From the NCBI RefSeq assembly GCF_900115105.1, contig NZ_FOYP01000001.1, forward strand, positions 1,762,097 to 1,826,096: a stretch of DNA of 64,000 nucleotides, given 5' to 3'. Numbering within the stretch: the first letter of the stretch is position 1; each line of letters begins with the position of its first letter. Below the pieces are notes generated by a model. The model did not search any database. It was not told where the DNA came from and saw only the letters and a program-made list of their open reading frames with translations. Shown here one piece after another: positions 21,280 to 26,747 of this stretch. Both the position numbers and the translations under genes were made by a program. This DNA is from Yoonia tamlensis. Its GTDB lineage: Bacteria; Pseudomonadota; Alphaproteobacteria; Rhodobacterales; Rhodobacteraceae.

Positions 21280-23397
21280 CTAACCTTCGATCTTGGTCAG
21301 ATCGGCAACCGAAAGACATAGATTGCGGATGCGCGACAAGAGGTTAAGCCGGTTGCGGCGCAGCACTTGGCTATCCGCATTGACCTGCACATCGGTAAAG
21401 AATGCATCAACAGCGGGCCGGATTGCCGCCATCGCGGCCATGGCAGTGCTGAAATCTTCAGCAGCCATCGCAGGGGCGATTTTTGCATCTGCGGCATCAA
21501 GGGCAGCAAACAGCGCCTTTTCGGCGTCGTCTTCGGCGAATTTGATGTCAGCGCCATAGGAATATTCAACACCGTCTTTTTCTTCGGCCTGCGTCAGAAT
21601 GTTATTGGCGCGCTTGAACCCTTGAATAAGGTTTTCACCATCATCCGTGGCCAGTGTTTCCGCCAAAGCCTCTGCCCGTTTAACCAACAACGTCAGATCA
21701 TCATTGCCCGGCATCGCAATGCAAGCGTCGATGATGTCGTGACGAATGCCTTTGTCTTTGAGGAAGACTTTCAGGCGGTCATGGAAGAACGAGAGGAGGT
21801 CAAAAGCGTTCGCAGAAATTGTTTCAGTCAGCGATCGATCTTTGTGTAAAGGGATTCCGACCATACTAAAGCGTTGCTGGCCGTGCCCGTCAATCGCAGC
21901 AGTTAAAGGAACTTTATTGCCATTTTCCAAAACCAATCGAATAACACCAAGCGCAGCCCTACGCAGCGCAAACGGGTCTTTTGACCCTGTCGGCTTTTCA
22001 TCAATCGCCCAGAACCCGGTCAGCGTGTCGACCTTATCGGCGAGCGCCACGGCCACGGATAAAGGTGCCGTTGGCACATCATCTGATGGACCAAGCGGGG
22101 AATAATGTTCTTGGCAAGCGGCGGCGACGGATGCGTCCAGCCCTGCTTCGGTTGCGTAGTAGCGGCCCATCAACCCTTGCAGTTCAGGGAATTCATAGAC
22201 CATTTCAGACGACAGATCGGCCTTGGCCACACGTGCGGCCTGTTCAGCCAAATCCGGGTCCGCGCCAACGGCTGGCGCGATTTCGCGCGCAAGTGCCGCG
22301 ATGCGCTCAATCCGGTCTTTCTGGCTGCCCAGTTTGTTGTGGAATGTGACGTTTGATAGGCCTTCCAGCCAAGGCTCCATCCCCGCCTTAGCCACGCGCA
22401 GATCATTTTCCCAAAAGAATTTTGCATCCGCCAAGCGGGCGAACAGCACCTTTTGGTTACCTGCAAGAATGGTCGCGCCATTGTCCGCTGTGACCATATT
22501 GGCGACGGTCACGAACCGTTCAATCCGGCCCGTTTTCGGGTTGCGCACGGAAAAGAACTTTTGGTGTTCTTTCATGGATGTTTGCAGCACCTCGGGCGGC
22601 AGCCCAAGGAAATCATCGGCGATCTGCCCCAGCAGGACAACGGGCCATTCAACCAGTCCTGCAACCTCTGCCAACAATCCGCGATCTTCGACCACCTCAA
22701 GCCCCAGCGCAAAGGCTTGGTTTGTGGCGTCATGCCAAATGAGTTCGGCGCGTTCATCGGCGCGCAGGATCACATTGGCGCGCTTCAGCTTTGCCTCGTA
22801 ATCGTCAAACCCGTTGACCGAAAACGCATCGGGCGCAAGAAAGCGGTGCCCGCGCGTCGTATTGCCCGCACTGATGCCGTCAATATCCAGCGGCACAACC
22901 TGCGCGCCGCCTTCGTCCGATAGGATACAAATAATCGAATGCAGCGGGCGCACCCATTTCAGCGGAGCGTCGCCCCAGCGCATGGATTTCGGCCAAGGGA
23001 AATTGCGGATCGTGTTGTCCAGCACTTCGGCAATGATATCGGCCGCCAAACGCCCCGGTTTTTCGATCACGGCAAAGTACACCTGACCTTTTTTGTCGTC
23101 GCGGATTTCAAGCGCGTCGCGTGTCACCCCTGCCCCGCGCAAGAACCCTTCGATCGCTTTATCAGGCGCGCCGACCTTTGGGCCTTTGCGTTCTTCGCGG
23201 GTGGCTTTGCTTTCTGCTGATAACCCGTCAAGCGACAGCGCAAGACGGCGCGGTGTCGAAAACGCCGCGGCACCCGCATAGGTCAATCCGGCCTCGACCA
23301 GACCATCCGTGACCAGTTTTTTCAGATCATCCGCCGCGCGCGTTTGCATACGGGCGGGAATTTCTTCGGAGAAAAGTTCAATCAGCAGATCAGGCAT
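21280..23397 (-). CDS. glyS: Glycyl-tRNA synthetase beta subunit
   Basis: A 705-residue beta chain of the tetrameric (alpha2beta2) bacterial glycyl-tRNA synthetase, which contributes tRNA binding. Family landmarks are the N-terminal [90 protein letters not shown], and the anticodon-binding C terminus ([22 protein letters not shown]). Full length. The ATG shares one base with the stop of the preceding membrane-protein gene, so glyQ, that gene and glyS form one coupled operon. The dikinase gene downstream is separated by about 80 bases. Confidence 0.97.
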
Positions 23398-23921
23398 CAG
23401 TTCTGGCTTTCGGGTGGGCAGGTTTCGGGGGCTGGGTTTCCGTCAAAGACGACCTCGCCACATGCATTGATTTGGTGCCACGCATAGGCGCGGCCATCGG
23501 GGTAGACGGCAACAATGCGGTCGATCCCGTAGTGGATGTTTTCGGTTCCCAGAAACGCAATCGCATTTCCGGTTTCAAGGTCCGCGCCGATTTGTTCGGC
23601 GTCAAAGCAATCAAACCAATCGGGTGCGATGCGCGGCTCTGCTTCGTCGACAATGACATAGGTTTCGGTCAGCATGGCCTGGCTTAACACGGTGGTAAAA
23701 CAGGCGCGGTAGCGGATCGGGCTGCTGTCGGAATCGATGGCGTCAAAGCTGTCATAGATGATCGGCTCTGCCTCTCCGGTCACGACAGAGGTCAGTTCGA
23801 CCTGCGCGTCTGCCGCGTCAACTTCGACGTAATAAGCGTAAACCTGAAGGTAATAAAGCGCGGCACCTGCGATCAAAGCTGACATGACAATCCCCACAAT
23901 TGCGATACGGACCCCCGACAT
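23397..23921 (-). CDS. Small membrane-anchored protein within glyQS (DUF6446-like)
   Basis: A 174-residue protein with an N-terminal membrane segment ([20 protein letters not shown]) and a likely periplasmic domain of about 145 residues. Its four cysteines (in YRACFTT, WFDCFDA, INACGEV and PETCPPE) suggest disulfides. I associate the family with DUF6446 of Rhodobacterales, without certainty. Function is unknown. The ATG at 23921 overlaps the glyQ stop (ATGA) and its stop overlaps the glyS start, so all three are translationally coupled. Being between the two subunits of an essential enzyme implies co-expression, not a shared function. Confidence 0.75.
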
Positions 23922-24841
23922 CAGGCCGCGGCCCCGGCGGCACCGGTTTGCATAAACGCGTCGGCGCATTGTTTGGCCAGCGCGCGCACGCGTCCGATAT
24001 AGGCTTGGCGTTCGGTGACCGAAATCACGCCGCGCGCGTCAAGCAGGTTGAACAAATGGCTGGCCTTGATGCATTGGTCATAGGCGGGGTGCGCCATGAT
24101 GATGCGTTTGCCGGTTTTGGGGTCTTGGGCAGGTTGTTCAAGGATACGTTGGCATTCGGCTTCGGCGTCTTTGAAGTGCTGCAGCAGGATATCGGTGTCG
24201 GCCACGTCAAAATTCCAGCGCGCGTATTCTTCTTCGGTCTGTTTGAACACATCGCGGTAGGTCAGCGGGTTTGGCGCGTCGGGATCGTTGAACGGCATGT
24301 CCATCACATGATCCACGCCCAGAATATACATCGCCAGACGTTCCAGCCCGTAAGTCAATTCGCCGGACACAGGTTTGCAGTCATAGCCGCCAACCTGTTG
24401 GAAATAGGTGAATTGCGAGACTTCCATCCCATCGCACCAGACTTCCCAGCCGAGGCCCCACGCGCCCAATGTCGGGCTTTCCCAGTCGTCTTCGACAAAG
24501 CGGATGTCATGCAGGGATGCATCAACCCCAATCGCCTTGAGCGAGCCAAGATAGAGTTCCTGCAAATCCGGCGGGCTTGGTTTGATCAGGACCTGATATT
24601 GGTAATAATGCTGCAAACGGTTCGGGTTTTCGCCGTAACGCCCATCTGTCGGGCGCCGTGAAGGCTGCACATAGGCGGCGGCCCATGCTTTGGACCCAAG
24701 CGCACGCAGGGTTGTGGCCGGATGGAACGTGCCCGCGCCGACTTCCATGTCGTAGGGTTGCAAGATGGCACAGCCCTTGCTGGCCCAATAAGTCTGAAGC
24801 CGCAGGATAATGTCCTGAAAACTGCGTGGTTTGTCTGCCAT
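23921..24841 (-). CDS. glyQ: Glycyl-tRNA synthetase alpha subunit
   Basis: A 306-residue catalytic alpha chain of bacterial-type glycyl-tRNA synthetase. It begins [20 protein letters not shown] with the class-II motif regions [55 protein letters not shown] and [22 protein letters not shown]. The alpha subunit binds glycine, ATP and the acceptor end; GlyS supplies the rest of the tRNA contacts. First gene of the glyQ-membrane protein-glyS operon. A gap of about 180 bases separates it from the divergent gene at 25020. Confidence 0.97.
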
Positions 24842-25019
24842 GGTGCCCCTCGTCTACAATCATGCGTTCAATAGGCTGCTGCGCCCAAAGGGTCAATTGG
24901 GCAACGGGTTGCAAGAAAAAGTCATAATTGTGTAAAAACTGTGGCAACACGTCTTGCACCGAACATGATCCCACGCCAGTCATGGGGTATTGGTTCCAAA
25001 ATTTGCCTGCGGAGTAGAA

Positions 25020-26747
25020 ATGATCAAAGTAATTATTGCATTTGTGCTATTCAGCGTTTCAGCGGTTTCCGCGACAGCACAAGACAATTTTTGGGTTCAG
25101 GTCGAAGCCCAGACATCGTTGACCGGCGCGCAGGACCGCGCCCGCGATTATGCGGGCACGCTTGACAGTGTGCATGGATATTATCTGGGCAACGGCTTTT
25201 ATGGCATCTTTATCGGCCCCTATTCCGAAACCAATGCTGAAACCGCGCTGCAAACATTGCTCAGCCTTGGCGTGATTCCTTCAGACAGTTTTGTAAAAGA
25301 AGGAAGCCGGTTCCAACAGCAATTCTGGCCAATCGGCGGGCGCACGGTCCAGTCGGTGCAAACCACGGCTGACACGCAACCGACCCCAACGGATACGGCT
25401 GTTGCGATTGCCGCCCCTGCCGATGAAACCGTCGCCGAAGCCCGCGCGAGCGAGGCCGCACTTGACCGCCCCGCCAAGGAAGACTTGCAAATCGCGCTGC
25501 GCTGGGCGGGTCATTACGATGCGGCAATCGACGGTTCATTCGGGCGTGGTACCCGCGCGGCAATGGAAGCATGGCAAATTGCCAACGGCGAAGAACCGAC
25601 AGGTGTTTTAACCACGCGCCAGCGCGCCAGATTGCTTGAACAATATGACAGCATTCTCGAAGGAACCGATTTGCGTCTAGTGCGCGATGACGCCTCTGGC
25701 ATCCAGATGCAAATCCCGACAGGGCTTGTGGCATTTACCGAATATAAACCGCCTTTCGTGCGCTTTGACCCCAGTGCTGATGAACCGCATGCGCAAGTCT
25801 TGTTTATTTCGCAAACCGGCGACGCGGGCCGGCTTGTCGGGCTCTACGAGATCATGCAGGTGCTTGACATCGTGCCCACCGAAGGCCCGCGCAATCTGAC
25901 CAGCACAGGGTTTGAAATCGAAGGCATCGACACTGAGCGCCATTCTTACACATCGGTCACGCTGGAAGGTAACGATATCAAGGGGTTCACGCTTGTCTGG
26001 CCTGCGGGCGATGACGCGCGCCGCATCCGCGTTCTTGAGATCATGAAAGACAGCTTTGAACGGCTGGACGGCACGCTTGATCCGGCGATTGCCCCCCCGG
26101 GCGAAGACCAATCCATTGATCTGGTTTCAGGTCTGACCGTGCGCCAGCCCAAGCTTTCACGTTCGGGGTTCTATGTCTCTGACGACGGGGTAGTCGTCAC
26201 CACAGACGAGGCGGTCGCGCAATGCGCGCAGATCACCGTGGACCGCGATACCGATGCAGAACTGATTGCAATGGATGCCGACCTTGGCATCGCGCTGTTG
26301 CGCCCGACCTCGGCGATCACGCCACATGGCACCGCCGCGTTCCAAACCGGCACCCCGCGTCTGCAGGATCAGATTGTTGTCGGCGGCTACCCCTATAGCG
26401 GCGCACTTAGCGCGCCAACGCTCACCTTCGGGCAGGTCGTTGATATCCGCAGCCTGACCGGCGACGACCGCCTTGTGCGCCTGTCGATTTTGCCGCAACC
26501 CAGCGATGCTGGCGGTCCGGTGTTCGATAAATACGGCGCTGTCATTGGCATGCTCTTGCCACGGATCGACGGCAATTCGCAGGTGCTCCCGCCCGAGGTC
26601 AATTTTTCCGCAGATGCGGCGCAAATCATGGCACTGCTCGAGACCAACGCAGTTTCAGCGCAGGTCAGCACAGACCTGACCGAAGTCGGCCCCGTACAAA
26701 TGACCCGCCACGCGGCAGATATCACTGTTTTGGTCAGCTGCTGGTAA
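25020..26747 (+). CDS. Secreted SPOR-like/PG-binding pseudoprotease
   Basis: A 575-residue exported protein. Residues 1-21 are a signal peptide. About 22-100 look SPOR-like (NFWVQVEAQTSLTGAQDRA...GNGFYGIFIGPYS). About 150-210 form a PG_binding_1 domain (LQIALRWAGHYDAAIDGSFG). 211-360 is an unassigned domain. About 370-545 is a trypsin/HtrA-like fold. In that fold all three triad positions are replaced: Glu397 for His (VVVTTDEAVA), Gly423 for Asp (DADLGIALL) and Ala497 for Ser (PSDAGGPVF). It therefore probably binds peptidoglycan or a peptide in the periplasm without proteolysis. The ATG at 25020 follows GCGGAG. It converges directly on trkH with no gap. Confidence 0.82.
   Translation: MIKVIIAFVLFSVSAVSATAQDNFWVQVEAQTSLTGAQDRARDYAGTLDSVHGYYLGNGFYGIFIGPYSETNAETALQTLLSLGVIPSDSFVKEGSRFQQQFWPIGGRTVQSVQTTADTQPTPTDTAVAIAAPADETVAEARASEAALDRPAKEDLQIALRWAGHYDAAIDGSFGRGTRAAMEAWQIANGEEPTGVLTTRQRARLLEQYDSILEGTDLRLVRDDASGIQMQIPTGLVAFTEYKPPFVRFDPSADEPHAQVLFISQTGDAGRLVGLYEIMQVLDIVPTEGPRNLTSTGFEIEGIDTERHSYTSVTLEGNDIKGFTLVWPAGDDARRIRVLEIMKDSFERLDGTLDPAIAPPGEDQSIDLVSGLTVRQPKLSRSGFYVSDDGVVVTTDEAVAQCAQITVDRDTDAELIAMDADLGIALLRPTSAITPHGTAAFQTGTPRLQDQIVVGGYPYSGALSAPTLTFGQVVDIRSLTGDDRLVRLSILPQPSDAGGPVFDKYGAVIGMLLPRIDGNSQVLPPEVNFSADAAQIMALLETNAVSAQVSTDLTEVGPVQMTRHAADITVLVSCW

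Follow-up and report, generated by a model that had tools for sequence, protein, structure and literature searches.

Closest described systems

MamO, an HtrA-like pseudoprotease of the magnetosome, promotes proteolysis that depends on MamE, and two of its histidines bind metal (PMC4794232). Bacterial trypsin-fold pseudoproteases of known role are few, and in the literature searched MamO was the sole clear case with an HtrA fold. In this study, a gene lying in a 64,000-nucleotide stretch of Yoonia tamlensis DNA (the window) was compared with MamO and related systems. Its product and MamO are alike in that an alphaproteobacterial HtrA fold, descended from active trypsin-2 proteases, has a degenerate active site and appears to have been kept for non-catalytic work. 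However, MamO has a di-histidine metal site, whereas no column of the corresponding domain here contained more than 22% His among 134 orthologues. MamO also has a C-terminal transporter domain, whereas here the HtrA-fold domain itself closes the chain, at residue 575, and is accompanied by PG_binding_1, SPOR-like and PsbP-like modules. MamO is the closest known analogue; the Yoonia protein resembles it at most in its way of working and should not be classed as a MamO.

The DegP, DegS and HtrA proteins share with the protein the HtrA fold and, as we infer for the present case, export to the envelope. They differ in the catalytic triad, which is absent here, and in the PDZ domain: none was found among the Pfam matches of the pseudoprotease to E 1, and its chain stops after the trypsin-like domain. 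In Mycobacterium tuberculosis, MarP (Rv3671c) is an active membrane-bound protease with a triad that is not known to carry wall-binding modules. MarP has a trypsin-like fold and gave the best NCBIfam match, at 25.7 of 250 bits, which is far under the cut-off. No paper on a Rhodobacteraceae pseudoprotease of this kind was found in the literature searched, and within that literature the family is undescribed so far. The SPOR protein Dshi_0924, known from vesicles of Dinoroseobacter, may or may not be an orthologue.

Gene and protein layout

The host genome is 3.19 Mb in size and belongs to the Rhodobacteraceae; the named relatives at about 74-80% identity were Yoonia and Loktanella. The gene and its features are as follows (positions in the window).

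23921 to 24841, minus strand: glyQ, divergently oriented neighbour by which the orthologous locus is recognised (context)
25011 to 25014, plus strand: GGAG, ribosome-binding-like, 5 nt before the ATG at 25020 (sequence)
25020 to 26747, plus strand: pseudoprotease gene, 575 amino acids, four modules; open reading frame confirmed, ATG at 25020, stop at 26747
25020 to 25079, plus strand: putative signal peptide, residues 1-20; hydrophobic N-terminus ending ATA-QDN, judged by eye; modelled helix 2-22
25080 to 25301, plus strand: SPOR-like region, residues 21-94; Pfam score under the cut-off, modelled order beta-alpha-beta-beta-alpha-beta
25332 to 25427, plus strand: disordered linker, about residues 105-136; pLDDT below 50 at 106-132, fastest-evolving part
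25479 to 25634, plus strand: PG_binding_1, residues 154-205 (Pfam, over the cut-off)
25653 to 26087, plus strand: PsbP/Mog1-like domain, residues 212-356 (AF2 model and fold comparison)
26145 to 26744, plus strand: HtrA/trypsin-fold pseudoprotease domain, residues 376-575 (Pfam Trypsin_2 and DegS fold match)
26208 to 26210, plus strand: Glu397, catalytic His position (column alignment)
26223 to 26225, plus strand: Cys402, nearly invariant (column alignment)
26286 to 26288, plus strand: Gly423, catalytic Asp position (column alignment)
26508 to 26510, plus strand: Ala497, catalytic Ser position (column alignment)
26739 to 26741, plus strand: Cys574, conserved C-terminal Cys within the SCW end (column alignment)

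A promoter and a terminator of the gene were looked for, and nothing of weight was found. The Pfam search detected Trypsin_2 (PF13365) at residues 382-511 (E 7e-16, 59.6 bits against a cut-off of 27.6) and PG_binding_1 at residues 154-205 (36.7 bits against 23), and both were matched in all 20 members of the family alignment. The PG_binding_1 domain of the original prediction was thereby confirmed. The SPOR-like region that it had named stays putative: SPOR was matched at E ≤ 0.01 in 9 of the 20 members, and the Yoonia tamlensis protein itself scored 16.1 bits at residues 21-81, under the cut-off of 21. Secretion by a signal peptide had also been proposed; the hydrophobic N-terminus agrees with it, and the peptide is putative, as judged by eye.

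Replacement of the catalytic triad

Glu397, Gly423 and Ala497 had been predicted to stand at the positions of the catalytic His, Asp and Ser, with the fold motifs VVVTT, IALLRP and GGPVFD retained around them. All three motifs were present. When the family HMM was aligned to PDB chains, the E, G and A coincided with the catalytic His, Asp and Ser residues of the Deg/HtrA chains. Furthermore, 127 proteins of the glyQ locus were aligned jointly with 32 active alphaproteobacterial relatives obtained from a class-wide search, and the relatives were without exception H, D and S at these positions (32/32 each). Both comparisons agreed with the predicted assignment.

The same columns were then read in 134 orthologues, mostly divergent from glyQ. 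The His column contained no His, and Glu or Asp was found there in 104 of them; the Asp column was Gly in 122 and Asp in 4, and the Ser column was Ala in 98 and Ser in 4. At most one triad residue occurred in any orthologue. Cys402 was present in 133 of the 134 orthologues and in all 32 active relatives, and Cys574 in 133 and 29, respectively, the remaining three relatives being unaligned there. Since the active relatives show an intact triad at these positions and share both cysteines, the alignment is not shifted; the triad residues of the PDB HtrA chains occupy the same columns, which rules out a shift as the explanation. A mutation of one genome or a sequencing error was likewise ruled out by the 134 orthologues without the triad. 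A serine-protease annotation taken from the Trypsin_2 match would mislead for this gene.

We also considered whether the domain has acquired a new catalysis through a different set of residues. The acidic residue at the His position (104/134) and Asp496, found in 121 of 134 orthologues, would suit such a reading. However, the domain contains no substitute His (the highest His frequency of any column among the 134 orthologues being the 22% given above) and, in the same orthologues, no conserved Lys or plausible new Ser nucleophile, so that a substitute triad was ruled out. A Cys nucleophile was also ruled out: both cysteines are invariant in the relatives with an intact triad as well, and they are therefore structural. 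New catalysis is accordingly very improbable. Cys402 and Cys574 probably form a disulfide. The cysteine pair had escaped the original prediction, as had the PsbP/Mog1-like domain at residues 212-356.

Compared with the active relatives, several residues are newly fixed in the clade of glyQ-locus proteins, among them R487 (Q in the active proteins), D496 (N), R381 (G) and G423 (D). Conversely, positions 493, 495 (the oxyanion Gly), 526 and 528, near the cleft and nucleophile, are conserved in the active proteins and relaxed in this clade.

Predicted folds

An AlphaFold2 model computed on 20 orthologues had a mean pLDDT of 82. Its C-terminal domain resembled DegS and HtrA1, the best match being DegS with a DALI-scale Z of 19.1 over 162 residues (rmsd 2.5); the trypsin-like fold proposed earlier was thus recovered as an HtrA fold. 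No Pfam match to E 1 was obtained for residues 212-356. When this part was modelled alone (AF2, 40 orthologues), the pLDDT was 95.3, and the model matched cyanobacterial PsbP (Z 12.0, 131 residues), Mog1p (Z 10.2) and DcrB (Z 8.6). On the basis of the model, residues 212-356 are a predicted PsbP/Mog1-like domain. It shares the fold of PsbP, Mog1 and DcrB; in contrast to them, it lacks a sequence-family match and is fused to a pseudoprotease. A profile comparison of this domain with the mid domain of the active relatives was collinear and at most suggestive, with a probability of 51%.

Distribution and ancestry

An orthologue was found in 33 of 36 genomes of the same genus, and matches at E ≤ 1e-10 came from 267 of the 297 Rhodobacteraceae genomes sampled, a count that includes a few weak matches or matches to other members. 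The neighbours of the pseudoprotease gene are glyQ, DUF6446 and trkH. Among 140 loci of the glyQ type, some of them near-duplicates, glyQ adjoined the orthologue on the opposite strand in 138. About one-tenth of the sampled family genomes lacked the gene, and in several of these glyQ stood directly beside trkH, which would fit either a clean loss or an empty site. Its absence from three genomes of the genus and about one-tenth of those of the family indicates that the gene is dispensable. The adjacency of trkH and glyQ, with no gene between them, was seen in L195, L197 and L198 of the same genus.

In a tree of the trypsin-like domain, the glyQ-locus proteins formed one clade (SH-aLRT 100) on a long stem of 1.72 changes per column, beside the active relatives. 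The triad is absent from the whole of one Rhodobacteraceae clade, which is fixed at the glyQ locus, and this agrees with a single loss at the base of the clade.

Active relatives and the decoy reading

Active Trypsin_2 proteins such as L182, L183, L226 and L236 have the same C-terminal domain with the equivalents of C402 and C574. Several of these active relatives also contain PG_binding, and SPOR-like and mid domains were recognised in them by profile or by eye. Unlike the pseudoprotease, the active relatives have an intact His-Asp-Ser triad, and those examined sit away from the glyQ locus. The combination of SPOR-like, PG_binding and mid regions was detected by profile in L182 and L219, and partly by profile and partly by eye in L226, L235 and L236. 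Because active relatives have a like module make-up, it is plausible that an ancestor combined these modules with a working protease; the order of events is conjectural. L226, L235, L236 and L182 are encoded at other loci and have their modules in a similar order, and the genomes of L226, L235 and L236 match the pseudoprotease too.

Using a profile of the active relatives, we found an active close relative in 31 or more of the 297 family genomes, counting as strong a match of E 1.4e-47 or better; below this there was a gap to 1.7e-40, where the glyQ-locus proteins start. Among the 20 best matches to this profile, the triad was intact wherever it was legible. In L229 the triad seemed to have been lost a second time, but this was a domain-slicing artefact: the sequence reads TNNHV, DLAL and GNSGGP. 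Strict mutual exclusion of active relative and pseudoprotease, suggested by a biased genome set, was rejected in the full sample, where 23 of the 31 genomes hold both, leaving a weak association (Fisher p 0.04, relatedness ignored). The other PF13365 proteins of the Yoonia tamlensis genome are a DegP-like protease (497-codon frame, intact triad) and a 287-codon trypsin-like frame; no close active paralogue of the pseudoprotease was found among them.

These results bear on the earlier suggestion that the protein regulates or competes with an active protease. As a decoy, the dead domain would trap and shield the substrates of an active envelope protease, a reading favoured by the intact DegP-like protease of this genome and by the genomes (31 or more) with an active close relative, 23 of which also have the pseudoprotease. 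However, about 90% of the sampled family genomes, that of Yoonia tamlensis included, are without a clear close active relative, so that a dedicated active partner is not the general rule, and the substrate cleft, with its oxyanion Gly, is relaxed in the clade. The competitor part of the suggestion is weakened by both observations, and we consider a decoy unlikely.

Selection on the dead domain

The dN/dS of the dead domain was 0.045-0.20 in same-genus pairs, and that of the linker reached 0.4; the domain is therefore maintained by selection. Purifying selection is evidence of function and is silent on which function it is. The pair L007/L010 was set aside from this calculation, as its domain dS of 0.03 points to recombination. 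In this pair, a dS of 0.03 in the trypsin-like part stands against at least 0.7 in the upstream domains, which suggests recombination within the gene.

If only the wall-binding and PsbP-like modules mattered, the trypsin-like domain would be an inert structural remnant. L184 and L186 have lost it while retaining the N-terminal modules, and the dead domain is therefore not always needed. Nevertheless, it was kept in 128 of 130 aligned glyQ-locus orthologues, with a dN/dS well below 1 and invariant cysteines, which makes an inert remnant improbable. The two domain-less orthologues are at L186:4565-5728 (minus strand) and L184:4246-5886 (minus strand); the latter apparently has two SPOR-like repeats, as judged by eye.

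Proposed function

We propose that the protein is a secreted, peptidoglycan-tethered and non-catalytic scaffold or regulator. The SPOR-like and PG_binding_1 modules at the N-terminal side would hold the exported protein on the cell wall, perhaps at septal sites or on denuded glycan. The PsbP-like and the dead HtrA-fold domains would serve as non-catalytic modules that bind a protein or a ligand, and the whole would act in the envelope as a scaffold or regulator and not as an enzyme. We infer binding to the cell wall from the PG_binding_1 domain. A septal preference is suggested by the sub-threshold SPOR match together with the known behaviour of SPOR domains, which bind denuded glycan (PMC6895207). 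We estimate the probability of this reading, with the septal or denuded-glycan site and the binding-module roles included, at roughly 0.6. The dead domain had been predicted to be a binding module at the wall; triad loss across the family, fold, selection and PG_binding_1 all favour a dead domain kept as a module of a wall-targeted protein, and binding by the domain itself is presumed.

A narrower role, similar to that of MamO (PMC4794232), would be to activate a different enzyme of the envelope allosterically, or to act in its assembly; a protease, an amidase or a lytic transglycosylase would be such an enzyme. Besides the MamO precedent, the residues newly fixed in the clade agree with this role, and the wall-binding modules would be expected to put the protein near peptidoglycan enzymes. 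However, no candidate partner was found, and the neighbours glyQ, DUF6446 and trkH suggest none; we regard the activator as possible, at rather low odds. The relaxed cleft positions and the newly fixed R487, D496 and R381 are more in keeping with a new interaction than with a decoy for substrates. Returning to the wall-tethered scaffold or regulator, it may further be speculated that a wall-bound HtrA-fold protease was converted, at one locus and in most of the family, into a catalytically dead receptor or activator by which septal peptidoglycan is sensed or organised, and hence into a clade-defining envelope regulator; this extension is tentative and rather doubtful. With a dead copy across most of a large, well-cultured family and active relatives of like architecture, a role of the HtrA fold without catalysis is testable.

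The DUF6446 neighbour

The DUF6446 gene lies at 23397-23969 of the window (minus strand), between glyQ and glyS, and is a conserved gene of unknown function in a tRNA-synthetase cluster. By tblastn, it was found beside the orthologue in 120 of 145 tabulated loci, some of which are too short to reach it.
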